DNA from: Hymenobacter psoromatis
Lineage (GTDB): Bacteria; Bacteroidota; Bacteroidia; Cytophagales; Hymenobacteraceae
DNA: 64,000 bases
Assembly (NCBI GenBank): GCA_001596155.1
Contig: CP014771.1
Location: forward strand, 4,154,001-4,218,000
Direction: 5' to 3'
In this document: piece by piece, positions 2,917 through 63,626 of the stretch
Layout: every line of letters starts with the position of its first letter
Position numbering within the stretch: position 1 is the first letter of the stretch
Notes under the pieces: generated by a model
The model's input: the letters and a program-made list of their open reading frames with translations, nothing else
The model's database searches: none
Told to the model about the DNA's origin: nothing
Made by a program: the position numbers and the translations under genes

Positions 2917-2954
2917 AAATCCGACCAATCCGACCAATCCGAAAAATCCGTGGT
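2917..2954. repeat. Family G GGATT repeat touching the scoA stop codon
   Basis: Four AATCC/GGATT words at about 9-10 nt spacing. The ACCACGGATT end abuts the TGA stop of scoA (2955-2957) directly. Other copies lie at 7255, 16712, 56484, 63418 and 63582. Confidence 0.75.
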
Positions 2955-3650
2955 TCAGACAAGTACCGTGCGCTGCTCGATGCGCTTCTCATACTGCTCC
3001 CCCTGAAAAATACGCTGCACGAAAATTCCCGGCGTGTGAATCTGGTTGGGGTCGAGCGCGCCCGCGGGAACCAATTCCTCCACCTCCGCCACGGTAATCT
3101 TGCCGGCCGTAGCCATCATCGGGTTGAAATTACGGGCCGTGCCCTTGTAAATGAGGTTGCCCGCCGTGTCGCCCTTCCAAGCTTTGACGAACGCAAAATC
3201 GGCGGTGAGGCCGGTTTCGAGCAGGTACATCTTGCCGTTGAACTCGCGGCTTTCCTTCCCTACTCCCACCTCCGTGCCGTAACCGGCCGGGGTGAAAAAT
3301 GCCGGAATGCCCGCCCCGCCGGCCCGGCAGCGCTCGGCCAGCGTGCCCTGCGGAATCAGTTCCACCTCCAGCTCACCGGCTAATAATTGCCGCTCAAACT
3401 CGGCATTCTCGCCCACGTAGCTCGAAATCATCTTGCGCACCTGCCGCTTTTGCAAGAGCAGCCCAATGCCAAAATCATCGACGCCCGCGTTGTTCGAGAT
3501 GCAGGTTAAGTCCTTCACGCCCAGGCGTAAAATCCCTTGAATGGCGTTTTCAGGGATGCCGCAGAGGCCAAAGCCGCCCAGCATCAGGGTCATGCCGTTG
3601 GCCAGGCCCGCGAGGGCGGCCCGGACATCGGGAACAGTCTTATCAATCAT
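2955..3650 (-). CDS. scoA: 3-oxoacid CoA-transferase, subunit A
   Basis: Alpha subunit of the CoA-transferase, 231 residues. Family features are '[19 protein letters not shown]' near residues 19-37 (the glycine-rich CoA-binding stretch), '[19 protein letters not shown]', '[17 protein letters not shown]' and 'LELELIPQG'-like '[16 protein letters not shown]'. It forms a heterotetramer with ScoB and is needed for the same reaction. It is transcribed from the minus strand, upstream of the serine hydrolase and scoB. A family A inverted repeat and a family G repeat separate it from the next gene, so the co-transcription usual for scoAB may be weakened or lost here. Confidence 0.93.
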
Positions 3651-3673
3651 AGGTGAATATTTCGCGGGCGAAA

Positions 3674-4882
3674 TCAGTGGGTGGGAAAAGCGGGCGGAAG
3701 ATAGTCAAGGGGCAGGAGCTCGCCGATTTTCTCGAAGCTCCAGTAGCCCTCCGTGAGCAGCGCCAGCGGCTCGGTGGGCACGCCATTCGGCTCCACTTCG
3801 GCGGCCGGGGGCGGCCGCAAGTGCAACACCGATTCCTGGTAGCGGGGTAGGGGCCGGCCCGACACCGAGCCCGGCAGCCGGAAGTTAGGGTCGGGCCGCT
3901 CGCCATCGTAGGTCACGGCCAGCAGGTCGCGAAAGCGCAGCCACACCCGGCCGTTGGCGTCGGTGCGGCGCATGCTGTCGGGCGGCAGGTAGGGCTCGTA
4001 GAGAATCGAAACCAGGTGCGGCTCAGCCAGCTGCTTCCATATCGAGGGGGGTAGGCTATTCTGATTGAGGATGGCGCCCGAGGCCTGGCGGGCGCGCACC
4101 AGGCTGTCGGCGGCGGCCCAGCGGCGGTTGGGCAGGCGCTGCAAGCGTTGCAGCCGGAAGCCCTGCTGCACCACGTCGCCCACGTAGGCACTACGCAAAA
4201 AGTGCATAAACGACCCCTGATAGGCCCGCAGGCGGTTAGCGGCCCACCGCTTTTGTTGCTTGTTGGTACCAGTCAGCTCCTTGAAAACCACCTGGCTAAG
4301 CGTAGTAAGCATGGCCGACTGGTCGGCAAAATCGGCCCGGAAATACAGGTTGTAAAACGTGAGGCGGTAGCCCAGCGCCAGGTTATCGACCAGCAGCGGC
4401 TGCCGCGCCGCGCCGGCCGTGAGCGCCCGCGTAGTGGGGTCATAATCGACCTGCACATCGGTCGGGTTGCGCACCTGGCACTGGCGCGCGAAGCTGGACG
4501 TGCCCAGAAATAATTCCAGAAAGCGCTGGTAGTCATCGGCCAGCGCCGGCCGCGGCCGCACCACTACCTCGCCCAGCGCCTGCGCGGCGGGGGGTAGGGC
4601 CAGGTCAACGGTCAGCGGCGCGCTGCCCACCACCACCGACTGCTGCCGCAGCCGGTGGCCCAGGTACGTGGCGGCCACCTCGTAGCGGCCCGCCGGCACG
4701 GCTGGCAGCACATAATGCCCCTGCTCATTGGTCGTCGCGCCCAGCGTGGTATTCACCAGAAACACGCTGGCAAACGCCAGCGGCTGCCGCGTCACGGAGT
4801 CGCGCACCGTGCCGCTGAGGCTAGCTTGCGCCAACGCCAGCCCCGGCAGCAGCCAAAGTAGGAAAGCCCAAATGGCGCGCAT
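3674..4882 (-). CDS. Secreted carboxypeptidase-like regulatory domain protein (paralogue 1)
   Basis: 402 residues. A signal peptide ('[19 protein letters not shown]') is followed by a CarboxypepD_reg-like beta-sandwich at about 20-105 ('[19 protein letters not shown]', '[19 protein letters not shown]'). This is the domain found at the N-terminus of many SusC-like receptors, but no plug or barrel follows. The remaining 300 residues form a family I cannot name; they carry '[12 protein letters not shown]' and end '[18 protein letters not shown]'. The gene at 5073-6242 is a tandem paralogue with the same architecture and end motif. It is probably periplasmic or outer-membrane associated. A TATTTTTG box at 4921-4928 on this strand is a plausible promoter. 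Only 23 nt separate its end from scoA's start. Confidence 0.75.
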
Positions 4883-4920
4883 ATTTCAGTAGGAAAGCCC
4901 GGAATGAAAAGAGCTTTCCG

Positions 4921-4928
4921 CAAAAATA
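4921..4928 (-). promoter_or_regulatory. Putative -7 box (TATTTTTG)
   Basis: Minus-strand TATTTTTG, 38 nt before the ATG at 4882, matches TAnnTTTG. It lies between the D-family repeat and the first paralogue. Confidence 0.4.
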
Positions 4929-4956
4929 GGCGCATTCCCTACCCCCTGTTAGGTTA

Positions 4957-5066
4957 GTAGCACGAACTTTCCAGTTCGTGCGCGAGCAAAGCGAGCATCG
5001 TCGTGCGCACCGCGTGGTCCCGGCTGCTCGCTGCGCTCGCGCACGAACTGGAAAGTTCGCGCTACT
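4957..5066. repeat. Family D inverted repeat (copy 2)
   Basis: The arms begin AGTAGC(A/G)CGAACTTTCC and contain the internal hairpin CGAACT-TTCC-AGTTCG. They face each other across about 45 nt, between the two carboxypeptidase-like paralogues. On the minus strand the element starts about 7 nt after the stop of the gene at 5073. Confidence 0.85.
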
Positions 5067-5072
5067 GGTGGC

Positions 5073-6242
5073 CTACCGCAGTTGGGCGCGGCCCGTGGCC
5101 GGCGCGCTACGCGCCGGAGCGGGGGTAGGCGCGGCCGGCGCAGTAGTCAGCGGCTCGTAGTCGAGAGGCATAAACTCGCCGATTTTCTCGAAGCCCCAGT
5201 ACTCGCCCAGCGCTACGGCTTCGGAATCGTGGAGCGAGCCGTTGGGCAAAATCTCGACCTGAGGAGCCAGCAGGCGCACCTTCGATACCTCGCGCTCGGT
5301 GGGGTAGGGCGTGCGCGAGTAGCCCAGCGGCGACATCGGCTGGCTGTAGGCCGGGTCGGGCGTTTCGCCAAAATAAGCCACCTGCAGGTCGCCCGTGAAG
5401 CGCAGATACACGTGCTGCCGGTCGGCCGATACCCGCCGAATGCTGTCGATGGGCCGCGCGCCGGGATACACCACGGCCGAGCTGCCGTCGGGCGTCAAGC
5501 GCACGAGCTGCGCCAAAAAGCCCTGCTTCTTCAAGTCGTTGCGGTACACGCTGCGCAAGAAGTGCGTGAATGAGCCCGCGTAGGCCCTGGCGCGGTTGGC
5601 GGCCCACTGCTGCCGCTGCTGGTCGTCCTGCGGCGTCATTTCCTCAAACACCGGCTGGCCGTCAAAGCTGCCGGCGCTGCCGTCGGGGGTAAAGCGGAAG
5701 CTCATGCCGTAGTATTTCAGGCGGTAGCCCAAGGCGTCGTTTTCCACCTCTACGAAGTTTTTGGCCGAGGCCACCAGCTCCTGCGTCGAGTCGTTAACGA
5801 ACACCACCACGTTCTTCGGATTGGTGATGCGGCACTGCTGCGAAAACGCGGTTTGCCCCAGAAAAAGGCCCGAAAATTTGTCATAATCTTCCTGGCTGTG
5901 GGGGCTGGCCTGCACCATTACCTCGCCCAGCGCCGGCCCCGCCGCGCTCAGCAGCAGCGTCAGGCTCTGGGGCGCGGCCGCCTTGCCTATCGTAATGGAT
6001 TGCTTGCTCAAATTGTAGCCTACGTAGGAGCCCACCAGCTCGTAGCTGCCCGCCGGTACCTTCGGAAATACGAATTCGCCCTGCTCGGTAGTAGTCGCGC
6101 CCAGCGTCGTATTGGCCAAAAACACGCTGGCAAACGCCAGCGGCTGGTGAGTGGCCGAGTCCTGCACCACGCCCGTCAGCTTGCCCTGCGCCAGGGCCAG
6201 CCCCGGCAGCAAGCAAAGTAAAAACGCCAGTATCTTCTGCAT
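5073..6242 (-). CDS. Secreted carboxypeptidase-like regulatory domain protein (paralogue 2)
   Basis: 389 residues with signal peptide '[19 protein letters not shown]', then a CarboxypepD_reg-like domain ('KLTGVVQDSATHQPLAFAS', 'TTTEQGEFVFPKVPAGSYE') and a C-terminal region like that of the gene at 3674. Shared landmarks are 'FTHFLRSVYRNDLKKQGFL' and 'YWGFEKIGEFMPLDYEPL'. The tail is Ala/Pro-rich (about 20 residues). The pair probably arose by tandem duplication and has diverged considerably. No enzyme motif is evident, so a structural or surface role in the envelope is a guess. It is on the same strand as, and upstream of, paralogue 1, with a D-family repeat between them. Confidence 0.75.
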   Translation of the reverse strand: MQKILAFLLCLLPGLALAQGKLTGVVQDSATHQPLAFASVFLANTTLGATTTEQGEFVFPKVPAGSYELVGSYVGYNLSKQSITIGKAAAPQSLTLLLSAAGPALGEVMVQASPHSQEDYDKFSGLFLGQTAFSQQCRITNPKNVVVFVNDSTQELVASAKNFVEVENDALGYRLKYYGMSFRFTPDGSAGSFDGQPVFEEMTPQDDQQRQQWAANRARAYAGSFTHFLRSVYRNDLKKQGFLAQLVRLTPDGSSAVVYPGARPIDSIRRVSADRQHVYLRFTGDLQVAYFGETPDPAYSQPMSPLGYSRTPYPTEREVSKVRLLAPQVEILPNGSLHDSEAVALGEYWGFEKIGEFMPLDYEPLTTAPAAPTPAPARSAPATGRAQLR

Positions 6243-6306
6243 AAGTCAGTTAGTAGGGAAGAGGTCGCCTTCGCCGGCGAGCGAGGGGGTAGGGCAAGAA
6301 AAGTGC

Positions 6307-7257
6307 CTAAGCGCCCAGCGCCGCCCGCGTGGCCTGCGCATCGAGCGCCAGCTGGGCTGTGAGGGCAGGCAGGCCATCATACTTTTCTTCGCCCCGCAGC
6401 CAGGCAACGAACTCCAGCGTCAGTAATTGCCCGTATAGGTCACCGCTAAAGTCAAGTAGATTAACCTCAATGGTTTGCGCCAGACCTTCGCCAATGGTCG
6501 GCCGCACCCCAATGGCCAGCATGCCGGGGTGCCGGGTGCCCGCCGCCGTGGTCGCCCACACCGCATAAATGCCGATGGCCGGCACCAGCTTCAGCGGCTC
6601 GGGCACGGCCAGGTTGGCCGTGGGGTAGCCGATGGTGCGGCCCAGCTGCTGGCCCGTCACCACGCGCCCGGTGAGGGGGTAGTGATAACCCAGATAGGCC
6701 GTGGCAGTAGCCACATCGCCGGCCCGCAGCGCCCGCCGAATGCGCGTGCTGCTCACGCCCACCGCGTCCACGTCCTGCCGCGAAATTTCCTCCACCGTGA
6801 AGCCGTAGCGCGCCGCGTGCTGGCTGAGGTAGTCGAAGCCACCCTCCCGGTTTTTGCCGAAGCGGTGGTCGTAGCCAATCACCAAGTGCCTGGTGCCCAC
6901 CGTTTTTACTAGCAATTCCTGAATGTATTCCTCCGAGGTCCACTGCGCAAACTCGCGGGTGAAGGGCATCACCAGCAGGTAGTCCACGCCGTGCTCGGCC
7001 AGCCGGGCCGCGCGCTCATCCAGGGTGTTGAGCAGCTGCAACTCCAGCAGCTCGGGATGCGAGGGCGGCGGCCCCAGCACCAGGCGCGGGTGCGGCCAAT
7101 AGGTGACGACCACCGTGGGGCCGCCCACCGCGTCGGCTACCTGCCGCAGCCGCGCCAAAATGCGCTGGTGCCCCAGGTGCACCCCATCGAAGGTGCCGCT
7201 CGTCACCACGGCATTGGGCAGGCGCGGAAAGTCGGCGGGGTCAGTAATACAAATCAC
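6307..7257 (-). CDS. ribF: Bifunctional riboflavin kinase / FAD synthetase
   Basis: RibF converts riboflavin to FMN and then FAD in the cytosol. The 316 residues show the N-terminal FAD synthetase nucleotidyltransferase domain ('VTSGTFDGVHLGHQRIL' at about 19-35, and 'SSTRIRRALRAGDV') and the C-terminal riboflavin kinase domain ('LGRTIGYPTANLAVPEP', 'GVRPTIGEG', 'EVNLLDFSGDLYGQ'). The start is GTG at 7257, giving 'MICITDPADFPRLPNAVV'. That GTG belongs to the CACGGATT end of a family G repeat (7255-7296), an odd situation shared with pth. ribF closes the ftsX-DUF3098-uppP-truB-ribF series on the minus strand; 65 nt separate it from truB. Confidence 0.95.
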   Translation of the reverse strand: MICITDPADFPRLPNAVVTSGTFDGVHLGHQRILARLRQVADAVGGPTVVVTYWPHPRLVLGPPPSHPELLELQLLNTLDERAARLAEHGVDYLLVMPFTREFAQWTSEEYIQELLVKTVGTRHLVIGYDHRFGKNREGGFDYLSQHAARYGFTVEEISRQDVDAVGVSSTRIRRALRAGDVATATAYLGYHYPLTGRVVTGQQLGRTIGYPTANLAVPEPLKLVPAIGIYAVWATTAAGTRHPGMLAIGVRPTIGEGLAQTIEVNLLDFSGDLYGQLLTLEFVAWLRGEEKYDGLPALTAQLALDAQATRAALGA

Positions 7258-7296
7258 GGATTACGCGGATTTTAGACGGATTTCACGGATTTTGTA
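7255..7296. repeat. Family G GGATT repeat supplying the ribF start codon
   Basis: CACGGATTACGCGGATTTT... has GGATT words spaced 9-10 nt. The first CAC is, on the minus strand, the GTG start codon of ribF. Confidence 0.75.
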
Positions 7297-7322
7297 GACG
7301 GCGCGGGGGGCTCTGGCTTGGC

Positions 7323-8174
7323 CTACGCGGATTCGGCTGATTGTGCTGAATCTGGAGTGGCGGGCAAGCTGGAATTTTCGGCCTGCTGGGCGGCGAAATA
7401 GTCGAGGCCGGCGCGGGGTGCCGGGTGGCGCTCGCGCGGGCGGGGGGGGGTAGGGGCCGCGCCATCGGCGGCGGCGGCCTCGGGGCGGGGCGGGCGCAGG
7501 GCCTGCACCTCGGCCACGGTCCAGGCGTCGGCTAGTTTATAGTCGCCGATGCGGGTGCGCACCAGGCGCGTGAGGTGCGCGCCTACCCCCAGCGCCGCGC
7601 CCAGGTCGCGGGCCAGGCTGCGGATGTAGGTACCCTTCGAGCACACCACCCGAAAATCAATTTCCGGCAGCTCGATGCGCGTAATATCAAACGCCTTTAT
7701 CTCCACCGTTTTGGGCTTGATTTCGGCTTCCTGGCCTTTGCGCGCCAGCTCGTAGGCGCGCTGGCCGTCCACTTTCACCGCCGAAAACAGCGGGGGTATC
7801 TGCTCAATTTTACCCAGAAAGGGTAGCACGGCGGCCCGGATTTCCGCCTCCGTCAGGTGCGCGTAGGGCAGCTCGGCGTCCACGGCCGTTTCGCGGTCGA
7901 AGCTGGGGGTAGTCTGGCCCAGGCGGAAGGTGCCTTCATACTCTTTTTCCTGGGCCTGAATCTGGTCTATGTCCTTGGTTTTTTTGCCGGTGCAGAGAAT
8001 AAGCAAGCCGGTCGCCAGCGGGTCGAGGGTGCCGGCGTGGCCGATTTTGCGCGGGCGCAACGTGTTTTTCACCTTGCGCACGATATCAAATGAAGTCCAG
8101 GTCAGCGGCTTGTCGAGCAGCAGCACTTCGCCCGTTTCAAAGTCAAAGTCTGCCAGCTGTTTTTTCTCGCTCAT
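7323..8174 (-). CDS. truB: tRNA pseudouridine(55) synthase
   Basis: TruB isomerises U55 of the tRNA T-arm. I chose the ATG at 8174 ('MSEKKQLADFDFETGEVLL') because the longer frame, from 8207, would run 32 nt into uppP; with this start the two genes are 1 nt apart. Motifs: 'LLLDKPLTWTSFDIVRKVK', the catalytic 'HAGTLDPLATGLL' (Asp of GTLDPLA, about residue 51), 'EYEGTFRLGQTT' and 'CSKGTYIRSLARDLG'. The last 60 residues are a Pro/Ala-rich tail ('PTPPRPRERHPAP') beyond the usual end of the family; it is encoded partly by GGGGTAG-type words. Probably co-transcribed with uppP. Confidence 0.95.
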   Translation of the reverse strand: MSEKKQLADFDFETGEVLLLDKPLTWTSFDIVRKVKNTLRPRKIGHAGTLDPLATGLLILCTGKKTKDIDQIQAQEKEYEGTFRLGQTTPSFDRETAVDAELPYAHLTEAEIRAAVLPFLGKIEQIPPLFSAVKVDGQRAYELARKGQEAEIKPKTVEIKAFDITRIELPEIDFRVVCSKGTYIRSLARDLGAALGVGAHLTRLVRTRIGDYKLADAWTVAEVQALRPPRPEAAAADGAAPTPPRPRERHPAPRAGLDYFAAQQAENSSLPATPDSAQSAESA

Positions 8175-8175
8175 C

Positions 8176-9006
8176 CTAAACCAGTTGCAGATTGAGGCCC
8201 AGCCCAATCATCACTAAAAGCAGTCCGCCCACGATGATGCGGTAGATGCCGAACGCCCGAAAGCCGTACTTCGCCACGAAGCCCACAAACAGCCGAATTG
8301 CCAGCAGCGCCACCACAAAGGCCACCACGTTGCCGAGCACCAGCAGCTTCACCTCCTGCCCCGAGAATAAGTGGCCCAGGTCAACACCCTGACTGTGAGC
8401 TTCTTTGTAATAATCGTACAAGTCCTTGGCCGCCGCCGCCGCCATCGTGGGCATGGCCAGGAAGAACGCAAACTCGGCCGCCGCCCGGCGCGTCAGCTTC
8501 TGCGTGAGGCCGCCGATAATGGTGGCCGCCGAGCGGCTCACGCCCGGCACCACGGCCAGGCACTGAAACCAGCCGATGACAAACGCCTCCTTGTAGCTCG
8601 GGTTCGTGACCGGGTGGCCGCCGTGCTGCGAGTCTTCCTGCGGATAGAGCTTATCAATGAATACCAGCACGATACCGCCCAGCAGCAGCATCACGGCCAC
8701 CGTCGTCACCGACTCCAGCAGGGCGTCGATGTGCTTTTTGAGCAGCAGCCCCACCACCACGATGGGCAGAAAAGCCACCAGCAGTTTCAGGTAAAAATCA
8801 ATATTCTGAAAAAATCGCTTCCAGTACACCACCAGCACCGACAGGATGGCCCCGAGCTGAATCACCACCAAAAAGAGTTTCACAAAAGGGGTAGCCGCGA
8901 TGCCCAGCAGCTTGGAGGCGATAATCATGTGGCCAGTGCTCGATACGGGCAGAAATTCGGTGATTCCTTCCACAATCGCCAGCAGCAGCGCTTGCCAGTA
9001 AGTCAT
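8176..9006 (-). CDS. uppP: Undecaprenyl-diphosphatase
   Basis: An integral inner-membrane phosphatase (BacA/UppP) that dephosphorylates undecaprenyl pyrophosphate so that the lipid carrier can be reused for peptidoglycan and O-antigen synthesis. 276 residues with about eight hydrophobic segments. The two signatures are '[17 protein letters not shown]' near residues 14-30 (Glu-rich motif) and '[14 protein letters not shown]' (PGxSRSxxT). High levels are known to give bacitracin tolerance in other bacteria. It is followed after 1 nt by truB, which suggests translational coupling, and preceded by DUF3098 and ftsX on the same strand. Confidence 0.95.
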
Positions 9007-9042
9007 TTTTGGTGCTTGTTAGTTGTTGATTGTTAAGCGTTT

Positions 9043-9128
9043 GTCATTGCGAGCCTGCGAAGCAATCGCACCAGAACGAAGCCAGCGCCGGTCGTTCTGG
9101 TGCGATTGCTTCGCAGGCTCGCAATGAC
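9043..9128. repeat. Family C inverted repeat (copy 1)
   Basis: Perfect 37-bp arms (9043-9079 and 9092-9128) with a 12-nt spacer. Each arm contains ATTGC...GCAAT. It lies between DUF3098 and uppP. Confidence 0.9.
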
Positions 9129-9145
9129 GGATAACACACTAAAAC

Positions 9146-9493
9146 CTAGCTCGGCCGCTTATACGCCGGCTTGGCCGGGCGGGGGGGGGTAGGGGCCGCC
9201 GTGGGCGCGGCTGCCGGCGCGGCCGGCTTGAGGCCCGCCACGAAGGGCGCGGCGACCACTGGCTCAGCGGCGGGCACTAATTCGCCGGGATTGCTGCGCA
9301 CCATAATGGCCGCAAACTCAATGAGAAAGCCCAAAAAAAGCAAAATCGGCCCCAGCGTGAGTCCCAGAAAGCCCTCGCCATAATCGGCCTTGTCGAGCAT
9401 CATCGTGATGAAGCCCACGGCCAGCACGGCCAAGCCCGCCCACATCAGGCGGTAGTTGCGCGGCCCAAAGGCGAAGCGAATCGTTGGTTGCAT
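9146..9493 (-). CDS. DUF3098 family small membrane protein
   Basis: 115 residues from the ATG at 9493 ('MQPTIRFAFGPRNYRLMW'). A longer frame would extend into an inverted repeat and is rejected. There are two transmembrane helices, at about 15-33 ('LMWAGLAVLAVGFITMMLD') and 42-62 ('GLTLGPILLFLGFLIEF'), followed by a Pro/Ala-rich cytosolic tail ('APAAAPTAAPTPPRPAKP'). The family is found in Bacteroidota next to ftsX and uppP, as here, so a role linked to division or envelope growth is often presumed, but no function is established. Confidence 0.8.
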   Translation of the reverse strand: MQPTIRFAFGPRNYRLMWAGLAVLAVGFITMMLDKADYGEGFLGLTLGPILLFLGFLIEFAAIMVRSNPGELVPAAEPVVAAPFVAGLKPAAPAAAPTAAPTPPRPAKPAYKRPS

Positions 9494-9497
9494 AAGG

Positions 9498-9577
9498 TTC
9501 TGGTTCTTAGTTTTTGGTTCCTGGTTCCTGGTTTCTAGTCTGAACGACAACTAGGAACCAGAAACCAGGAACAAGGA
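9498..9577. repeat. Family F inverted repeat (GGTTCCTGG type)
   Basis: An imperfect inverted repeat built from short words such as TTGGTTCCTGGTTCCTGG and, on the other arm, CCAGAAACCAGGAACAAGG. It fills the whole gap between the DUF3098 start and the ftsX stop. A related, perfect element lies at 19685-19770. Confidence 0.65.
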
Positions 9578-9579
9578 AC

Positions 9580-10464: not shown

Positions 10465-10471
10465 AGAAGCG

Positions 10472-10479
10472 CAAAGGTA
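10472..10479 (-). promoter_or_regulatory. Putative -7 box (TACCTTTG) for ftsX, nearly leaderless
   Basis: Minus-strand TACCTTTG is followed by CGCTTCT and the ATG. With the usual distance to the transcription start, the 5' leader would be 0-3 nt. Confidence 0.55.
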
Positions 10480-10514
10480 CACGTAGCTTTAATTGGAATA
10501 ACGCGCCTACCACC

Positions 10515-10615: not shown

Positions 10616-10633
10616 AACGACGACCTGCAAATT

Positions 10634-16711: not shown

Positions 16712-16747
16712 GATTAAATCCGCGTAATCTGCAGTAATCTGCGATTT
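16712..16747. repeat. Family G repeat touching the smpB start codon
   Basis: Words AATCC, AATCT and AATCT at about 10-nt spacing end in GCGATTT immediately before the smpB ATG at 16748. A slightly degenerate copy. Confidence 0.6.
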
Positions 16748-17203
16748 ATGAAAGACAAGACCCCCGCCAACGTCAACATCAAAAACCGCCGCGCCAGCCA
16801 TGAATACACCTTCCTGGCCAAGTACGACGCGGGCATGATGCTGCAAGGAACCGAGATAAAGAGCGTGCGCGCCGCCGAAGTCAACCTCCAGGACGGCTAC
16901 TGCACCTTCGACCACAAAGGCGACCTGTGGGTGCACAGCGTGCGCATAGCCCCCTACACGCCAGGTACTTACAACAACCATGACGCCATGCGCGCCCGCA
17001 AGCTGCTGCTCAACAAGCGTGAGCTGCGGCAGCTGGCCGGCAAAATGGATACCGGCCTCACCATCATCCCGTTGCGCCTCTTCGTAACGGACCGCGGCTT
17101 TGCGAAACTCGAAATCGCGCTGGCCCAGGGTAAAAAGCTCTTTGATAAGCGCGAAGACCTCAAGGCCAAAGACCAGAAGCGCGAAATGGAGCGCTTCCGG
17201 TGA
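16748..17203 (+). CDS. smpB: SsrA-binding protein SmpB
   Basis: SmpB binds tmRNA and brings it to stalled ribosomes for trans-translation. 151 residues. Family motifs are 'VNIKNRRASHEYTFLAKYD', 'GMMLQGTEIKSVRAAEVN', 'LWVHSVRIAPYTPG' and the basic C-terminal tail 'DLKAKDQKREMERF', which enters the mRNA channel. It lies 139 nt after tsaD; the gap is filled by an E and a G repeat, the latter ending exactly at the ATG. I looked for the ssrA (tmRNA) gene in the downstream gap and did not see it. Confidence 0.96.
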   Translation: MKDKTPANVNIKNRRASHEYTFLAKYDAGMMLQGTEIKSVRAAEVNLQDGYCTFDHKGDLWVHSVRIAPYTPGTYNNHDAMRARKLLLNKRELRQLAGKMDTGLTIIPLRLFVTDRGFAKLEIALAQGKKLFDKREDLKAKDQKREMERFR

Positions 17204-21482: not shown

Positions 21483-21599
21483 TTAAAAAAAGAACGTCAT
21501 GCTGAGCTTGTCGAAGCATCTCGCTCGCATCGTTGGACGATTAAATTAGTGTTGCAAGCGAGATGCTTCGGCAAGCTCAGCATGACGTTCTTTTTAAGT
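21483..21599. repeat. Family B inverted repeat (copy 1)
   Basis: Arms with core AGAACGTCATGCTGAGCTTG and mini-hairpin ATGCT...AGCAT. The right end contains the TAA stop (21594-21596) of the TPMT-family gene. Confidence 0.88.
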
Positions 21600-54981: not shown

Positions 54982-55045
54982 CGCCAACGGCCCGGCCAGC
55001 CTGCCAAGTGCGCCGGCTCTTGGCAGGCGCACTACCCTGGCCCAG

Positions 55046-55053: not shown

Positions 55054-55057
55054 CGCC

Positions 55058-56403: not shown

Positions 56404-56440
56404 AAAAAAGAACTCAAAAACAAAGTAAAAAAGAAATAAA

Positions 56441-56466
56441 AAAGGCGCGACCAAAGCCGCGCCTTT
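56441..56466 (-). terminator. Rho-independent terminator after typA
   Basis: AAAGGCGCG (56441-56449) pairs with CGCGCCTTT (56458-56466). On the minus strand the hairpin is followed by a T-rich run (TTTATTTC), fitting termination of typA. Confidence 0.7.
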
Positions 56467-56483
56467 CTCAAAATTAAACTGAC

Positions 56484-56516
56484 GTCCGAATCCGCGAAAT
56501 CGCGAAAATCCGCGAT
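56484..56516. repeat. Family G repeat touching the typA stop codon
   Basis: GTCCGAATCCGCGAAATCGC... with AATCC-type words about 9-10 nt apart ends exactly before the typA stop (56517-56519). Confidence 0.65.
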
Positions 56517-58328
56517 TTATTCGGCCGTTTTGGCGTAACGCAGCCGCTCGTTCTCATCAAGCAGAATCTTGCGCATCCGCACCGACTTGGGCGTCACTTC
56601 CAGGTATTCGTCCTTCTGGATATACTCCATCGCTTCTTCCAGCGAAAACTGGCGCTTGGGGACGATTTTGGCGTTGTCATCCGTGCCCGAGGCCCGCATA
56701 TTGGTCAATTTCTTGCCCTTCTGAATGTTGATGGTCAGGTCGTTAGGCCGCGTGTGCTCGCCAATAACCTGGCCGGCGTACACTTCCTCACCGGGGTCCA
56801 CGAAGAACGAGCCGCGGTCCTGCATCTTGTCGATGGTGTAAGCCGTGCCGGGGCCGGTTTCCAGCGAAATCAGCGAACCCGCGATGCGGCCCGGAATCGG
56901 ACCTTTGTGCTCCTCATAGTCCATGAAGCGGTGGTTCATGATGGCCTCGCCGCCGGTGGCCGTCAGCACGTTGTTACGCAAGCCAATGAGGCCGCGGCTC
57001 GGAATGCTGAATTCCAGGTGCTGCAAGTCGCCCTTGGGCTCCATGATGGTCATTTCGCCCTTGCGCATGCTCACCAGCTCGATAACCTTGCCGGCCGATT
57101 CCTCGGGCACGTCCACCACCAGCAGCTCGATGGGCTCCAGGCGCTTGCCTTTCTCATCTTCCTTGAACAGCACCTGGGGCTGGCCCACCTGCAGCTCGTA
57201 GCCTTCGCGGCGCATGGTTTCAATCAGCACCGACAAGTGCAGAATGCCGCGGCCAAACACGAGGAAGGTGTCCTCCTTATCGGTCGCCTCCACGCGCAGG
57301 GCGAGGTTTTTCTCGGTTTCCTTAAACAAACGGTCGCGCAAGTGACGCGAGGTCACGAATTTACCTTCCTTGCCGAAAAACGGCGAGTTGTTGATGGTGA
57401 ACAGCATGTTCATCGTCGGCTCGTCGATGCTGATGCGCTCCAGCTGCTCGGGGTTTTCGAAGTCGGCCAGCGTATCGCCGATGTCGAAGCCTTCGATGCC
57501 CGACACGGCGCAGATTTCGCCGCTGCTCACCTGGTCCACCTTCACGCGGCCCAGTCCTTCAAACACGTGCAGCTCGCGGATTTTTACCTTTCTGATGCTG
57601 CCATCAGCCTTCATCAGGCTCATGTTGGCACCTTCTTTCAGGGTGCCGCGGTGCACGCGGCCAATGGCGATGCGGCCTACGAACGCCGAGTAATCGAGCG
57701 ACGTAATCTGCATCTGGGGCGTGCCTTCCAGCACCGGCGCGGGCGGAATGGACGACAGCACCGCGTCGAGCAGCGGAATGAGGTTGTCGGTCCTTTCTTT
57801 CCAATCGGTGCTCATCCAGCCCTGCTTCGAGGAGCCGTACAGCGTCACGAAATCAAGCTGGTCTTCGCTAGCCCCTAGGTTGAACATGAGGTCGAAAACC
57901 TGCTCGTGCACCTCATCGGGGCGGCAGTTTTCCTTGTCCACCTTGTTCACCACCACGATGGGTTTCAGGCCCAGGTCGATGGCTTTGCCCAACACGAAGC
58001 GGGTCTGCGGCATGGCACCTTCGAAGGCATCCACGAGCAGCAAAACGCCGTCGGCCAGCTTCAACACGCGCTCTACCTCGCCGCCGAAGTCGGCGTGACC
58101 AGGCGTGTCGATGATGTTGATTTTCACGCCATTATAGCGTACTGACACGTTCTTCGAGACGATAGTAATGCCACGCTCGCGCTCCAGGGGGTTGTCGTCG
58201 AGGATGAGGTCGTCGAAGTGCTGGTGCGCGTCGAAAATCTTAGAGGCGTGGATAATCTTATCCACCAAAGTCGTCTTGCCGTGGTCAACGTGGGCAATGA
58301 TGGCGATATTCCGAATGTTCTGGCTCAT
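56517..58328 (-). CDS. typA: Translational GTPase TypA/BipA
   Basis: 603 residues from the ATG at 58328 ('MSQNIRNIAIIAHVDHGKT'), the normal family start; a longer frame upstream is rejected because a TACCTTTG box lies within it. G1 'AHVDHGKTTL', G2 'NPLERERGITIVSKN', G3 'DTPGHADFGG', G4 'VVNKVDKENCRP'. These are followed by EF-G-like domains II, III and V and the TypA-specific C-terminus ('IPSRGLIGLRNNVLTATGGE', 'HTRPNDLTINIQKGKKLTN'). It binds the ribosome and aids assembly and stress or cold adaptation. It is a single gene with its own terminator. Confidence 0.97.
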   Translation of the reverse strand: MSQNIRNIAIIAHVDHGKTTLVDKIIHASKIFDAHQHFDDLILDDNPLERERGITIVSKNVSVRYNGVKINIIDTPGHADFGGEVERVLKLADGVLLLVDAFEGAMPQTRFVLGKAIDLGLKPIVVVNKVDKENCRPDEVHEQVFDLMFNLGASEDQLDFVTLYGSSKQGWMSTDWKERTDNLIPLLDAVLSSIPPAPVLEGTPQMQITSLDYSAFVGRIAIGRVHRGTLKEGANMSLMKADGSIRKVKIRELHVFEGLGRVKVDQVSSGEICAVSGIEGFDIGDTLADFENPEQLERISIDEPTMNMLFTINNSPFFGKEGKFVTSRHLRDRLFKETEKNLALRVEATDKEDTFLVFGRGILHLSVLIETMRREGYELQVGQPQVLFKEDEKGKRLEPIELLVVDVPEESAGKVIELVSMRKGEMTIMEPKGDLQHLEFSIPSRGLIGLRNNVLTATGGEAIMNHRFMDYEEHKGPIPGRIAGSLISLETGPGTAYTIDKMQDRGSFFVDPGEEVYAGQVIGEHTRPNDLTINIQKGKKLTNMRASGTDDNAKIVPKRQFSLEEAMEYIQKDEYLEVTPKSVRMRKILLDENERLRYAKTAE

Positions 58329-58347
58329 ACGTAAGTTTTTGCGGCCG

Positions 58348-58355
58348 CAAAGGTA
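58348..58355 (-). promoter_or_regulatory. Putative -7 box (TACCTTTG) for typA
   Basis: Minus-strand TACCTTTG, 19 nt before the typA ATG. Confidence 0.55.
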
Positions 58356-58558
58356 CGGATTTTCAACTAGAAAACCGAGTTGCGTTTTTATTATCCTGAA
58401 AACCAACACCGCGCGGCCGCTCAGCGTTCCGCCGAAAGCGGGGGGTAGGACGGTTGTAAGGCCCACCGCCCGGCCGCGTCTAACCCAGCAGCATCCGAAC
58501 GCCCCGGCTTTTTCGTTTGTTGAGCTATCACACAACCACCTGCTTATCCCTACCCCCC

Positions 58559-59128
58559 ATGCGCCTTTCCATGCTTTCCCTGTTGCTGAGCGTCGCCGCC
58601 CTGTCGCCCGCCTGCTCGCAAAGCCACGCCGACCAGGGCAAAACCGTAGCTGCCGTGCCCGCCGGCCCCCACGGCGCTTCCGTAACCACCGATAAATACC
58701 CGCAGCCCCAGCCCGTCACGGGCAAGCCCGGCGAGTTTCCGGTGGTTAAAACCGATGCCGAGTGGAAAAAACAGCTCACGCCCGACCAATATTACATCCT
58801 GCGCGAAGAGGGCACCGAGCGGCCCTTCACCGGCAAATACCACGACAACCACGCGGCCGGCACCTACTACTGCGCCGCCGACCACAGCCTATTGTTTTCC
58901 AGCGACACCAAGTTCGATTCGGGCACCGGCTGGCCCAGCTTTTGGGCACCGGCCACCAACGCCAGCCTCAAGGTAAAATCGGATAAAACCTTCGGCATGA
59001 GCCGCGACGAGATTGTGTGCGACAAGTGCGGCGGTCACCTCGGCCACGTGTTCGACGACGGCCCCCAGCCCACCGGCGAGCGCTACTGCATGGACGGCAA
59101 CGCGCTGGTGTTTGAGCCCAAAAAATAG
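58559..59128 (+). CDS. msrB: Peptide-methionine (R)-S-oxide reductase lipoprotein
   Basis: 189 residues from the ATG at 58559. The lipoprotein signal '[20 protein letters not shown]' (Cys19) places it in the cell envelope, where it would repair oxidised methionines. The MsrB fold is shown by '[20 protein letters not shown]', '[14 protein letters not shown]', '[20 protein letters not shown]' and the catalytic '[11 protein letters not shown]'. Two features differ from the textbook enzyme. The first zinc pair is C-A-A-D rather than CxxC, leaving three cysteines, and the recycling Cys of SGCGWPS is Thr. Thr at that place is common in one MsrB group; the Asp is less usual. A terminator follows. 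Confidence 0.92.
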
Positions 59129-59167
59129 CGACGGCCAACCGCCCGGCGCGGAATCCGTTTAAGCAAG

Positions 59168-59192
59168 GCGGCCCACCACGGGCCGCTTTTTT
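59168..59192 (+). terminator. Rho-independent terminator after msrB
   Basis: GCGGCCC-ACCAC-GGGCCGC followed by TTTTTT. It ends 11 nt before the ATG of the next gene. Confidence 0.8.
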
Positions 59193-59202
59193 GCTGATAC
59201 TC

Positions 59203-59562
59203 ATGCTCTTCCGCCTCACCTGCCGCGCTGTGGCCCTGGCCCTACCCCCTCTGCTGCTGGCCGCGTGCTCGGCCACCGAGCGCACCGCCGAAAACGCCGC
59301 CCCCCGCTCCGTGCCCACCGAAGTAGTGACCGACGCCGACCGCCGCGCCATCTACAACGCGAACGCGCCGGCCGGTGCCGCCTCCCGCGCCGCCGTGCCC
59401 GACGCTACCCCTAATACCCAGCGCCTCGGCGAGCAGGCGTCCGACATCAACCGCCTCAAGCGGCCCGAAACGCTCAACACCAACGACGCCAACATCACCA
59501 CCAATGAAACCCGGATGCGGCGCATCGACCAGTCGATTCCCGATACGCTACGCCGCCCGTAG
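59203..59562 (+). CDS. Small lipoprotein of unknown function
   Basis: 119 residues from the ATG at 59203. The lipobox LAAC (Cys22) in 'MLFRLTCRAVALALPPLLLA' marks a lipoprotein. The mature part is polar and probably disordered, with Asn, Thr, Arg and Asp prominent ('TNDANITTNETRMRRIDQSI'). No known domain. Directly downstream is a D-family repeat whose left arm includes the TAG stop codon. Confidence 0.7.
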   Translation: MLFRLTCRAVALALPPLLLAACSATERTAENAAPRSVPTEVVTDADRRAIYNANAPAGAASRAAVPDATPNTQRLGEQASDINRLKRPETLNTNDANITTNETRMRRIDQSIPDTLRRP

Positions 59563-59690
59563 CCGTCAAGTAGCGCGAACTTTCCAGTTCGTGCGCGAGC
59601 ACAGCGAGCAAGTGGGGCCGCGCGGCGCGAACGACCATGCTCGCTGTGCTCGCGCACGAACTGGAAAGTTCGCGCTACTTGACGGCTACG
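59558..59690. repeat. Family D inverted repeat (copy 4) with perfect 53-bp arms
   Basis: Arms 59558-59610 and 59638-59690 are exact reverse complements. The outermost 12 bp (CGTAGCCGTCAA) include the last codon bases and stop of the lipoprotein gene. They are not shared with the other D copies. Confidence 0.93.
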
Positions 59691-59698
59691 GGCAACTA

Positions 59699-59742
59699 AA
59701 AAAGCCGGCCCATTTCCAATATTGGAAACGGGCCGGCTTTTT
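59699..59742. terminator. Bidirectional rho-independent terminator
   Basis: AAAAAGCCGGCCC and GGGCCGGCTTTTT enclose a second palindrome TTTCCAATATTGGAAA, forming an almost unbroken stem. It lies between convergent genes. Confidence 0.85.
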
Positions 59743-59759
59743 AGAATATTACTGATTAT

Positions 59760-60422
59760 CTACACGTTGTCCACGGCTACGCTGTCATTGGTCGTGCCGG
59801 CCGGCGTGCTGAGCTCCGGCGCGGCGGCGGACTGGCGCTTGGGGCGGCCGGGGCCGGGGCGGCTGGTCGATTTGCTGGTGGAGCCAACCGGGCGGCCGGC
59901 ACCTTTGTGGGGCGCGGCGGCGGGGGTAGGAGCCGTGGCTTTGCTGGTTTTGCGCGCCGAACTGTCTTTGTTAACCGCCGGCTTTCTGGCGCTGCTGCGG
60001 GCCGGGGCCGGCTCGGTGGCGACGTTGGCTTCGGGAGTGGGGGTAGGGGCTTCCGGCATGGCGGCGTCATAGTGGCGCACGATGTTGTGCAGCGCCTGCT
60101 CAAACATGCGCTCCGTATCGCCATCGAGGCGGCGGGTGGCGTCCTTCACCACTTCTTTCAGCTTGGCCTTCGTTTCTTTGCGGATGCGCGTGACCACCTC
60201 CTTCATGCGCGTGTCCAACTCCTTTTGCAGCTGCTTGGCGGCCGCCTTCAGGGTCTGTTTCTGGCTGGCTTTTTTCTCGGCGCGCTCGTCAGTCAGGCCT
60301 TTGGTCGCCTTCGCTGCCCGCTTGCTGGCTTTTTGAGATTTGCGCTCCTCTTTTTCCAGTGGGGTACGCTTCAATTTAGAGGCGGCGGCTTCGGGCGAAG
60401 GCGTAGCGTTTTTCTTGGCCAT
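59760..60422 (-). CDS. Lys/Ala-rich DNA-binding-like protein with AT-hook motifs
   Basis: 220 residues. The N-terminal 110 residues are highly charged and helical ('KLKRTPLEKEERKSQKASKR', 'KAAAKQLQKELDTRMKEVVT'). The C-terminal half is low complexity with two AT-hook-like cores, 'GAGRPVGSTSKS' and 'GPGRPKRQSA'. GRP flanked by basic residues is the classical minor-groove contact. The composition recalls histone H1-like or HMG-like proteins of Gram-negative bacteria. A role in nucleoid structure is an inference. It stands alone between convergent terminators and the divergent metG promoter region. Confidence 0.7.
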   Translation of the reverse strand: MAKKNATPSPEAAASKLKRTPLEKEERKSQKASKRAAKATKGLTDERAEKKASQKQTLKAAAKQLQKELDTRMKEVVTRIRKETKAKLKEVVKDATRRLDGDTERMFEQALHNIVRHYDAAMPEAPTPTPEANVATEPAPARSSARKPAVNKDSSARKTSKATAPTPAAAPHKGAGRPVGSTSKSTSRPGPGRPKRQSAAAPELSTPAGTTNDSVAVDNV

Positions 60423-60679
60423 GAGTAAAAGAAGTTAGTAGGTGTGAAAAAGGTGAAAGAGTGAAAGTTAAAGCCGCTCACCGCTCGCAATTAATTACGC
60501 TTCGCACAAACGGTAGCGCGCCCGTTTTGTTAGCATATCTCCATTTTCCCACCGCTAGTAATTCCCAATAAATAGGGTTTCAATCGGCGGTTTCTACAAG
60601 TTTCAGCCAAGCTACTGATAATTTTCGCAATTCCTTCGTTTTCAGCAGCGAAATAATTAGCAGCCAGTTCATTTTCCTA

Positions 60680-62722
60680 ATGACCTTACTCCCTCAGCGC
60701 TACACGGTTACGGCCGCTTTGCCCTACGCCAACGGCCCCGTGCACATTGGCCATTTAGCGGGCGTTTATTTGCCCGCCGACATTTACGTGCGCTACCTAC
60801 GCGCCCAAAACCGCGACGTAAAATTTATCTGCGGCTCCGACGAGCACGGCGTGCCCATCACTATTCGGGCGCAGAAAGAAGGCGTTACGCCGCAGCAAAT
60901 AGTCGATAAATACCACAAGATAATCGGCGATTCTTTCCGCGATTTCAACGTGTCGTTCGACGTGTATTCGCGCACTTCCTCGAAAACGCACGCTGAGGTT
61001 TCAAGCGAATTTTTTGAGAAATTAAATGCCGACGGCAAATTCATCGAGCAAACCACGCAGCAGCTCTACGACGAGCAGGCGGGCCAGTTTCTGGCTGACC
61101 GCTACGTGGTGGGCACCTGCCCCAACTGCGGCAACGAGAACGCCTACGGCGACCAGTGCGAGCGCTGCGGCACCTCGCTCAGCCCGACCGAATTAATTAA
61201 TCCACGCTCCATGCTCAGCGGCAACACGCCGGTGCTGCGCGACACGCGCCACTGGTTTTTGCCCCTGAACGAGTACGAGCCCTGGCTGCGCGAATGGATA
61301 ATTGAGGGCCACAAAAACGACTGGAAAACTAACGTTTACGGCCAGTGCAAATCCTGGATTGACCAGGGCCTGCACGCCCGCGCCGTGACCCGCGACCTCG
61401 ACTGGGGCGTACCCGTGCCGGTGCCCGGCGCCGAAGGTAAAGTGCTGTACGTCTGGTTCGATGCGCCCATCGGCTACATCTCGGCCACCAAGGAAGGCTT
61501 CCCCGACGAGTGGGAGAAATACTGGAAAGACCCGGCGACCAAGCTGGTGCATTTTATTGGCAAGGATAACATCGTTTTCCACTGCATTATTTTCCCGGTA
61601 ATGCTGAAGGCGCACGGCGAATTTATTCTGCCCGATAACGTGCCGGCCAATGAATTTCTAAACCTGGAAGGCGACAAAATCAGCACCTCGCGCAATTGGG
61701 CGGTGTGGCTGCACGAATATTTGCAGGATTTCCCCGGCCAGGCCGACGTGCTGCGCTACGTGCTCTGCGCCAACGCCCCCGAAACCAAGGATAACGACTT
61801 CACCTGGAAGGACTTCCAGGCGCGCAACAACAACGAGCTGGTTGCTACCCTCGGTAATTTCGTGAACCGCGCTGCCGTGCTCACCCAGAAGTTTTTTGAC
61901 GGCCAAGTGCCGGTGCGCGGCGAATTATCGGAAGTGGACGAAGAGGTATTTCGGCAGCTGGCCGAATTTCCGGCGCGCGTCGGCGACCTCATCGAAAATT
62001 ACCGCTTTCGCGACGCGCTGGCGGAGGTGATGAGCCTGGCGCGCCTCGGCAATAAATACCTCGCCGATACGCAGCCCTGGCACCTTATCAAAACCGACGC
62101 GGTCCGCACCGGCACGGTGCTGCACGTGGCGCTGCAAGTGGCGGCCGCGCTGGTTCCATTGCTCACGCCCTTCCTGCCCGAATCGGCCGAAAAGCTGGCG
62201 AAAATGCTGAATTTTGAGCCCGGCGACTGGCCGAGCGCGGCCCGCGCCGAGCAGTTGCCGGCCGGCCATCAATTGCAGGAACCCGCGCTGTTATTTGCCA
62301 AAATTGACGATGCCGTGGTGCAAACGCAAGTGCAGAAATTGCTCGATACCAAGCAGGCCAACGCGCTGGCCGCTACCCCCGTCGCGCCGGCCAAAGAGAA
62401 CGTGAGCTTCGACGAATTCGGCAAAATGGATTTGCGAGTGGGAACCATCGTGGCCGCCGAAAAAATCGCCAAAACCAAGAAATTACTCAAGCTCACCATC
62501 GAAGTTGGCCTGGAGCAGCGCACCATCGTGAGCGGCATCGCCGAGTCGTTTATTCCCGAGGCGCTGATTGGCCAGCAGGCGATGGTACTGTTGAATTTAG
62601 CGCCCCGCGAAATTAAAGGAATTCAAAGCCAGGGCATGTTATTGCTGGCCGAAAGTGCCGACGGTAGCCTGGCGCTGATGCAGCCCGGCAGCGCCGTGCG
62701 CAACGGCAGCCCGGTTTTGTAA
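60680..62722 (+). CDS. metG: Methionine--tRNA ligase
   Basis: 680 residues. The class I signatures are '[10 protein letters not shown]' (HIGH at 22-25) and '[11 protein letters not shown]' (the KMSKS loop in the form KISTS, about 333). The zinc knuckle is '[18 protein letters not shown]'. An anticodon-binding helical domain follows ('[13 protein letters not shown]', '[14 protein letters not shown]'), and from about residue 576 there is a C-terminal Trbp111-type tRNA-binding domain ('[16 protein letters not shown]', '[13 protein letters not shown]') that dimerises the enzyme. The length is that of the long MetG form. Codon use includes more TTA, AAT and ATT than neighbouring genes. Confidence 0.97.
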
Positions 62723-62736
62723 TTAATAACGAGTTA

Positions 62737-62843
62737 AAAGAGAACGTCATGCTGAGCCTGCCGAAGCATCTCGCTCACATCGTTGGACTAACCCGAACGA
62801 TGCGAGCGAGATGCTTCGGCAGGCTCAGCATGACGTTCTCTTT
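62737..62843. repeat. Family B inverted repeat (copy 3)
   Basis: Perfect 39-bp arms (62737-62775 and 62805-62843) with ATGCT...AGCAT in each. It fills most of the convergent metG/pth gap. Confidence 0.92.
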
Positions 62844-62853
62844 ATGATACTAT

Positions 62854-63420
62854 CTACTTCACATTCACCACGTTCATCGCGCGCTCCAAACCCAGACTGC
62901 CGAAGGCCAGCACGGCCTCGCCAGCCTTTTCAATCCGCGTAGGCAGGTCAATGCGCTCATCGGCCGAGAAGGGGTCGAGGACGTAATCGACCTGCCTACC
63001 CTTCGGAAAATTGGCATCAACGCCGAAGCGCAGCCGGGCGTACATGTCATTGCCCAGCGTGGCCTGAATATCCTTAAGGCCGTTGTGGCCGCCGGCTGAG
63101 CCCTGGCCTTTTAGGCGCAGCTTGCCAAAGGGGAGGGCCAGGTCGTCGGTGACGACCAGCATATTTTCGGCCGTAATTTTCAGCGTGCTCAACCAGTGCG
63201 CGGCGGCCTTGCCACTGAGATTCATAAACGTGGTGGGCTTCACCAGCACGTAGCGGTGGCCTTTGTTCTTGAATTCGGTGGTGAAAGCGTGGCGGCCCAG
63301 CTCAAAGCGCGGTGCCTCGAATTTAGCGGCCAAATAATCGGCTACCATGAAGCCAATATTATGGCGCGTATCGGCATATTCGGGGCCGATATTACCCAGG
63401 CAAAGTACTAAGAAAATCAC
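62854..63420 (-). CDS. pth: Peptidyl-tRNA hydrolase
   Basis: Releases peptides from tRNAs that dropped off the ribosome. 188 residues from a GTG start at 63420 ('MIFLVLCLGNIGPEYADTRH'), which aligns with the usual start of Pth. The catalytic His is in 'TRHNIGFMVAD'; 'KPTTFMNLSGKA' (Asn) and 'VVTDDLALPFGKLRLKGQGS' (Asp) are present, as is 'AGGHNGLKDI'. The GTG is part of the CACGGATT end of a family G repeat, as at ribF. It lies downstream of rplY on the same strand, a common pairing (ctc-pth), but a terminator separates them. Confidence 0.95.
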   Translation of the reverse strand: MIFLVLCLGNIGPEYADTRHNIGFMVADYLAAKFEAPRFELGRHAFTTEFKNKGHRYVLVKPTTFMNLSGKAAAHWLSTLKITAENMLVVTDDLALPFGKLRLKGQGSAGGHNGLKDIQATLGNDMYARLRFGVDANFPKGRQVDYVLDPFSADERIDLPTRIEKAGEAVLAFGSLGLERAMNVVNVK

Positions 63421-63459
63421 GGATTACGCGGATTTAAACGGATTTCACGGATTTTGTGG
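63418..63459. repeat. Family G repeat supplying the pth start codon
   Basis: CACGGATTACGCGGATTTAA... with four GGATT words. It is the inverted partner of the copy at 63582-63626. Confidence 0.8.
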
Positions 63460-63532
63460 ACGAGATAAATTCCCTGGCTGTACGACCAGGCTTCAGGCAA
63501 TTCGTCTCTATTTACCTCTACTTAACAAAAAA

Positions 63533-63559
63533 GAAAGCCACCCCAAAAAGGTGGCTTTC
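63533..63559 (-). terminator. Rho-independent terminator after rplY
   Basis: GAAAGCCACC and GGTGGCTTTC form a 10-bp stem. On the minus strand it is followed by TTTTTTG. It lies between the two G repeat arms. Confidence 0.8.
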
Positions 63560-63581
63560 CGGTACGAATTGACGGTGCCGT

Positions 63582-63626
63582 TCACAAAATCCGTGAAATC
63601 CGCTAAAATCCGCGTAATCCGTGGTT
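63582..63626. repeat. Family G repeat touching the rplY stop codon
   Basis: TCACAAAATCCGTGAAATCC... ending GTAATCCGTGGTT directly before the TAG of rplY (63627-63629). Together with 63418-63459 it makes an inverted pair of about 42 bp with few mismatches. Confidence 0.8.

Follow-up and report, generated by a model that had tools for sequence, protein, structure and literature searches.

Miniature inverted-repeat transposable elements (MITEs), like the Correia-type and ERIC-type elements, are short inverted repeats of intergenic DNA, with many copies that hold no gene and few that do. REP sequences and REPINs are also intergenic inverted short repeats, non-autonomous and tied to the dispersed RAYT tyrosine transposase, and a homing endonuclease gene sits within copies of the sequence that its product recognises. 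The subject here is a repeat family with likenesses to all of these, noticed as arrays of GGATT words in a stretch of 64,000 nucleotides from Hymenobacter psoromatis (assembly GCA_001596155.1, contig CP014771.1, positions 4,154,001 to 4,218,000 of the forward strand), referred to below as the window. An earlier note, made from the letters of the window, had reported six such arrays at the edges of genes and had proposed that they might carry 5' or 3' end signals. With moderate confidence, we read the arrays as the solo or outer arms of an intergenic element family that is tied to a PD-(D/E)XK nuclease of the GxxExxY family. Overlooked in the note were the inverted pairing of arms around a spacer, the stop-codon letters in the arm tip, and the GxxExxY link.

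As in MITEs and in Correia-type and ERIC-type elements, the arms are short, intergenic and inverted, with many geneless copies and few gene-bearing ones. Unlike those elements, each arm is an array of words 9-11 nt apart that borders a native-looking spacer, with no shared core between arm pairs and with a tip that contains stop letters and a GTG, and the linked gene encodes a nuclease. The likeness to REP and REPIN sequences lies in intergenic, inverted, non-autonomous short repeats tied to one dispersed enzyme family, and the difference in the fold of that enzyme and the make-up of the repeat. As with homing endonuclease genes, a nuclease gene lies within sequence that it may recognise and geneless copies exist; unlike them, solo arms are found at dozens of unrelated loci. 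The abundant, short, intergenic TAACTGA repeats that occur in sets in Beggiatoaceae differ in being direct repeats of another word, with no nuclease link noted in the available part of that report (PMC4679880).

An arm is about 45 nucleotides (nt) long and consists of a tip, usually four (C)GGATT-type words about one helical turn apart, and an inner end (TTTTGTGGACGATT). The class A arm reads AAATCAC GGATTACGC GGATTTTAGC GGATTTCAC GGATTTTGTGGACGATT and the class B arm TCTGAACCAC GGATTCGAC GGATTTTTC GGATTAATC GGATTTTGTGGACGATT; in class counts, any array not called B was taken as A, including a few other forms. All six copies reported for the window are present, all at codon edges and all with the same end toward the gene, and NCBIfam models confirm the names of the genes concerned (scoA-type, ribF, smpB, typA, pth and rplY). 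The motif CACGGATT(N3-7)GGATT occurs four times in the window and not once in 100 shuffles, and GGATT(N3-8)GGATT occurs 12 times against 0.37 expected.

The same placement holds across the 5.45 Mb genome, in which GGATTNNNNGGATT occurs 210 times and its backwards control never. Arrays were sampled from the window and from 48 stretches around listed places, and the 93 arrays of at least three exact words are those found among the places listed, for some word forms only, so that the genome total is at least 93; gene edges outside the window come from our own hexamer-based gene caller, with approximate starts. Of the 93 arrays, 63 begin within 0-8 nt of the gene edge that they face, whereas 2000 trials of random placement in the same gaps yield 6.2 on average and 16 at most, which agrees with the note's view that the placement is too regular for chance. 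Only the outer end lies within 10 nt of a gene in 69/93 arrays and only the inner end in 0/93. The genome-wide check that the note had proposed gave neither of its refuting outcomes, the lack of a peak at 0-3 nt or a mixed orientation, and the spacing of words, measured at 9-11 nt, is near one helical turn as had been claimed. The statement that the repeats always touch a start or a stop was too strong, as neither end lies within 10 nt of a gene in 24/93 arrays. On the stop side, 33 of 63 arrays stand at exactly 5 nt, with ACCAC or ATCAC abutting the stop, and on the start side a GTG lies inside the arm in 11 of 30. Within a 297 kb block of this genome, three control repeat families are rarely flush (copies at 0-8 nt from the facing gene: GTCATGCTGAGC 1/16, GTCATTGCGAG 2/18, GTCATTCCGAG 0/10), and standing flush with a gene is therefore no common property of its intergenic repeats. 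Exceptions are the CCTCACCCCC control family, with 2 of 5 copies at 0-8 nt, and a GCGCGAA family, 9 of whose 25 copies overlap the facing gene end by one base.

The arm tip carries either TCTGA or an AA that completes T|AA, and the opposite reading of the tip gives a GTG start. Taking stops 0-14 nt away, 33 of the 37 class A arms that could be read have TAA as the stop (background 83/224; Fisher p=1.4e-9). Of the 17 readable class B arms, 7 have TGA (background 35/224; p=0.015) and the rest TAG (5) or TAA (5). Among 16 readable arms facing a start 0-14 nt away, 12 have GTG as that start, in 11 cases inside the arm, against 31/224 in the background (p=2.8e-7); the background for stops and starts alike is the 297 kb block, with 224 of each. 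Start-facing arms also bear the stop letters (class B tip TCTGA in 7/8, class A tip with AA in 7/11), and, as a start has no need of a stop, these letters are part of the arm. In H. psoromatis, the gene at the 3943 kb locus ends with ..EDV on the TGA of the arm, and its counterpart in UV11, a Hymenobacter genome about 90% identical, is armless on that side and ends with ..EEVK and TAG. At two planctomycetal loci, the upstream genes look alike by eye: the gene at L141 ends at an arm TGA, and the frame at L139 continues through arm words near the upstream arm.

Four of the window copies have no partner arm in the sequence read. A class B arm (ACCACGGATTTTTCGGATTGGTCGGATTGGTCGGATT; 2909..2954, minus strand) lies directly 3' of the stop of the scoA-type gene (2955..3650, minus; TIGR02429), in a gap that shows no partner; the protein ends with ..RTVLV, and its TGA is the TGA within the arm tip TCTGA. 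The arm is present at this gene edge in UV11 too. At 7251..7301 (plus), a class A arm abuts the start of ribF (6307..7257, minus; NF004160/TIGR00083), and the tip read outward gives the GTG that is the first start in the open reading frame (ORF); in UV11, an ATG stands just past the same arm. Two diverged arms of about three imperfect words each lie immediately 5' of the smpB ATG (arm 16716..16747, minus; gene 16748..17203, plus; NF003843/TIGR00086) and at the typA stop, where TAA is followed at once by ATCGCGGATT (arm 56486..56516, minus; gene 56517..58328, minus; TIGR01394), and in UV11 both of these edges have an arm with different words.

The other two window copies are the two arms of one inverted pair. 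The left, class A arm (63415..63464, plus) supplies the GTG of pth (62854..63420, minus; TIGR00447), again the first start in the ORF, so that the note was right to derive the starts of both ribF and pth from the repeat; GTG ATT here corresponds to ATG AAG in another genome of the set, G028. The right arm, with class A words (63578..63626, minus), follows directly on the stop of rplY (bL25/Ctc; 3' part, 63627..63983, minus; TIGR00731), where TAG is followed by AACCAC. The native-looking core between them (63465..63577, unstranded) contains a terminator-like hairpin at about 63533-63559, which is retained in UV11 while both arms differ there.

Inverted pairs of this kind number 37 among the 93 arrays, in 15 convergent, 20 tandem and 2 divergent gene gaps, and 19 arrays are unpaired by the pair criterion. 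Arms of the same locus share small indels and word changes, such as CATC, CCTC or CATG, and one pair of the 37 is mixed in class. Summed over the 24 class A pairs, similarity is 941 against 800 (sd 19) on re-pairing, and over the 12 class B pairs 541 against 471 (sd 12), in both cases above all 5000 re-pairings. Gaps with an array are longer than those without, with medians of 159.5 nt (n=20) versus 82 nt (n=35) for convergent, 209.5 nt (n=38) versus 107 nt (n=226) for tandem, and 255 nt (n=6) versus 209.5 nt (n=54) for divergent gaps, counting gaps under 600 nt in stretches chosen around arrays and dropping unarmed gaps with other known repeats. The median distance from the stop to the first terminator-like stem is 67.5 nt where two GGATT words fall in the first 60 nt (38 of 68 such stops measurable) versus 29.5 nt at unarmed stops (60 of 329 measurable; p=4.5e-8), after dropping stops with other repeats. 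Compared by BLAST, the 37 cores gave nine short rows, spread over six locus pairs, of which one joins the two nuclease genes. Because the gaps are longer by about two arms, the cores mostly unrelated, and the terminators about 38 nt further away, the arms look as if they had been added at the edges of native spacers.

Array matches number 201 in H. psoromatis, as opposed to 2 to 152 in the 36 other Hymenobacter genomes searched. Between H. psoromatis and UV11, the core hairpin has been kept and both arms have switched class at two loci, the rplY-pth gap and 3960 kb. The rplY-pth gap was examined by eye at 30 loci of the 42 matches in 41 genomes, of which 29 could be read (the G036 locus lies at a contig end, with the gap out of view), and most show a stop, a word array, a hairpin, an inverted array and a start, the words being alike within species and different between species. 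Three genomes have no clear arms there (G028, G032 and G015), and G010 has a remnant. In the sister-species comparison suggested in the note, species about 90% identical thus have arms at the same gene edges, with changed words and, at the loci compared, cores that stay. This turnover, the lower array counts elsewhere in the genus and an outer tip that faces stops as well as starts tell against a conserved 5' or 3' end signal; gene-edge placement, the single orientation and the GTG starts are the parts of the note's reading that stand. In two other gaps, UV11 (G034) has word-array arms and H. psoromatis another inverted family (4155350-4155490 versus UV11 305890-306090, and 4164440-4164670 versus 314860-315070), as if repeat families replaced one another in gaps.

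Two long cores in H. psoromatis, at 3932 and 3943 kb, contain GxxExxY genes inside the arm pair. The encoded proteins score 138.8 and 137.1 bits against TIGR04256 (cut-off 35) and 136.7 and 130.9 against PF13366 (PDDEXK_3; cut-off 22), and the enclosed gene, far above both curated cut-offs, keeps the D, E, K and Q-x3-Y of the family: D70, E80 and K82 are invariant in 48 aligned GxxExxY sequences and Q94 is nearly so, in a PD-(D/E)XK fold of RecB type with the QxxxY motif. Sequence comparison found no solved-structure relatives up to E 10. The RecB-like SSO0001 (PDB 4ic1) we take to be Cas4, and Cas4 has a four-cysteine iron-sulphur site; unlike it, the 3932 kb protein has 128 residues with one cysteine, and thus lacks such a site. 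Hjc-type resolvases come only lower in the fold lists, which leaves a junction-resolvase role as a guess. A tblastn search with the 3932 kb protein at E 1e-5 matched no phage record and eight plasmid records, all below 60% identity. A literature search, with most subscription papers outside its scope, turned up nothing that describes these repeats or places inverted word arrays beside GxxExxY, and no paper giving GxxExxY proteins a role. Judging from the available parts of these papers, a gene called cas4 came out as GxxExxY in the pipeline of one study (PMC8934634), the word GxxExxY also occurs in another (PMC12085832), and PF13366 turns up in a third (PMC9756366).

The arms accompany the nuclease well beyond this genome. 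H. psoromatis has four GxxExxY matches, of which two have GGATT arms and one, at 3107 kb (L187), has arms of AG type. Among 22 loci from named records and 30 from relatives, 51 were testable (L135, with a short flank, was skipped), and inverted word arrays with a score of at least 15 surround GxxExxY at 43 of the 51, in several phyla, versus 9 of 496 control genes drawn from the H. psoromatis and UV11 blocks, that is, from Hymenobacter only. The words vary by host and are the same on left and right, for instance CGCCAAGG in Planctomycetota, CACATAG in Algoriphagus, CAGGAT in Verrucomicrobiota and CGCAGAG in Hymenobacter. At armed GxxExxY loci, 53 of 88 Hymenobacter arm tips have the end of an ORF of at least 70 codons within 12 nt (random 173/1760), as do 17 of 50 tips from other groups (random 69/1000), so that the habit of standing at stop edges extends, more weakly, outside Hymenobacter. 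In six nuclease copies (L071, about 2480-3085, which is the 3932 kb locus, and L128, L129, L130, L186 and L191), the inverted repeat extends past the arm into a terminator-like hairpin, near-identical at both ends. At 394290-395216 in H. psoromatis, an arm pair surrounds a core of 863 nt in which GxxExxY has no match.

One locus, beside a bacilliredoxin gene, displays several states of the element. Thirty loci of 42 matches were examined, and the neighbouring gene is present in 14 of the 30; G027 has no arms, G014 has arms only, both with identical odd words, and H. psoromatis, UV11 and G020 have arms with GxxExxY. The core is inverted between H. psoromatis and UV11, and the nuclease gene of UV11 and G020 runs opposite to that of H. 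psoromatis.

Arm words and arm numbers also follow the nuclease. Over 37 Hymenobacter genomes, the number of arrays correlates with that of GxxExxY matches, fragments included (Spearman 0.63, p=2.5e-5, uncorrected for phylogeny). On the nuclease tree, from which rows shorter than 105 aa, without flanks or with an arm score below 15 were dropped, the GAT and AG word types require 4 changes versus 21.6 when shuffled, with none of 500 shuffles as low, and single Hymenobacter genomes, including that of H. psoromatis, carry both types. Supported subclades of GAT type broadly match, in our own reading, the arm classes B, A/C and CCGCAGATT, and more loosely the CAGATG class. Genomes that have the matching nuclease subclade also contain more arms of class A/C (p=0.0005), and the same is true of class B (p=0.0023; both one-sided).

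How the arms move we infer from these patterns. The nuclease would act at arm DNA, and most pairs may be solo derivatives spread in trans by the nuclease of the matching subclade, with the tip allowing a gene to end or begin cleanly after insertion. Partner arms might be kept alike by pairing as a hairpin or cruciform, after which repair could copy one arm from the other, or the core could invert. Our guess is that inverted arms at both edges of a gap are gained by copying through such a hairpin or cruciform after cutting by the nuclease. A wider version, offered tentatively, is that these are pan-bacterial selfish elements for which a Cas4-like nuclease and helical-turn word arrays suffice: the nuclease would cut or unfold arm hairpins, repair would copy the arms to both edges of other intergenic gaps while the native spacer stays, and the tips would have evolved as two-way punctuation, stop in one direction and GTG in the other, making insertion harmless. 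Were the nuclease alone to move the arms, this would be a mobile system without a transposase. GxxExxY proteins occur in many phyla, and the arms offer them a candidate DNA substrate, open to testing in vitro. Moreover, the stop and start tips make plain how a repeat can persist exactly where core genes begin or end, here those for a ribosomal protein, peptidyl-tRNA hydrolase and FAD synthesis, and GTGs in arm tips bear on the start annotation of such edge genes.

Several observations weigh against tying the arms to the nuclease in this way. No arm movement was seen, near-identical strains with a clean empty site not having been compared, and no standard insertion reaction accounts for arms that bracket a native gap on both sides. 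Both H. psoromatis and UV11 are armed at most array-bearing loci of the compared block, and many brackets must therefore be old. The partner is the best or tied best match for only 28 of 74 paired arms, so that pair likeness is strong in sum and not absolute, and the gap and terminator comparisons depend on our own gene caller and on stretches picked around arrays. Arms were undetected at 8 of 51 GxxExxY loci, as they were at the 3701 kb copy in H. psoromatis (L239), and 13 of the 37 genomes lack GxxExxY and still have 2-44 array matches. The correlations carry no correction for phylogeny, and the tree comprises 66 of 99 nuclease hits, armed ones only and near-copies included; if arms and gene were inherited together, clade and word would match even without recognition. 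Many class A/C arms occur in G029 (31), G016 (21), G002 (19) and G014 (15), and many class B arms in G031 and G036 (26 each) and G035 (23), without a tree-placed nuclease of the respective subclade, although L242 in G016, 81% identical to an A/C member, and the shorter L186 in G035 come nearest to the right subclade. In addition, G062 has 50 class B matches and lay outside the nuclease search.

Ordinary MITEs offer another account, in which arm, core and arm form one unit moved by some transposase, edge placement arises because only gene-sparing insertions survive, and the nuclease is cargo. Inverted arms, many non-coding copies with few gene-bearing ones, and tips that end or start ORFs are all as this account expects; the 37 pairs among 93 arrays do represent terminal inverted repeats. 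The gene that matching arm ends enclose is that of a nuclease (no transposase search was made). The terminator beside the arm and within the inverted repeat in L128, L129, L130, L186 and L191 also fits. Yet a core that moves with its ends is not what was found, since the 37 cores share few short matches, armed gaps are longer by about two arms, and at two loci both arms have switched class around a retained native hairpin and core. Nor would uniform insertion between stop and terminator place 33 of 63 stop-side arms at one exact distance. With cores mostly unrelated and gaps differing by about two arms, insertion of the whole as a unit is disfavoured, and we consider this account unlikely. Less likely again is that no mobile enzyme is involved, the arms arising and changing in situ by template switching and by gene conversion between inverted arms and between loci, with the nuclease a passenger of conversion-prone sites. 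Partner arms that evolve together and arms that stay at the same edges while their words change speak for such a process; closely alike class A and class B arms at dozens of unrelated loci, the tracking of array number and arm class with nuclease presence, and the same arm-nuclease association in several phyla speak against it.

The proposal of the note, a conserved DNA or RNA element marking the ends of transcripts or of translation, draws on the exact placement and single orientation of the arms and on their position between stop and terminator. The same outer tip faces both stops and starts, however, and so would lie on opposite mRNA strands, the words turn over fast, and many relatives have far fewer arrays. 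We regard a regulatory signal, disfavoured by this turnover and these low counts, as quite improbable. That the pattern is an artefact of gene calling, or chance, is hardly credible: although edges outside the window come from a hexamer-based caller of our own, stops depend little on start calling, no array has only its inner end near a gene, the null maximum is 16/93 against the 63 observed, and curated gene families stand at all six window copies.

Other inverted intergenic repeats share the window. Three families have pair places about 75-100 nt apart, mostly not flush with genes: GTCATGCTGAGC at 21496/21575, 23352/23431 and 62746/62823; GTCATTGCGAG at 9043/9118, 17222/17302, 33211/33312 and 40955/41032; and GTCATTCCGAG at 2793/2873, 15459/15539, 29873/29952 and 34153/34233. 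A fourth is the GCGCGAA family mentioned above (TAGCGCGAAGTTTCC..), located at 1435/1448 and 59573/59667 of the window and at 4083234-4083334 and 4140511-4140611 of the genome. Besides the 9 of 25 copies with a one-base overlap, 2 of 25 lie at 0-8 nt from the facing gene end, and its TAG is the gene stop where read, so this seems to be a second repeat that supplies stop codons.

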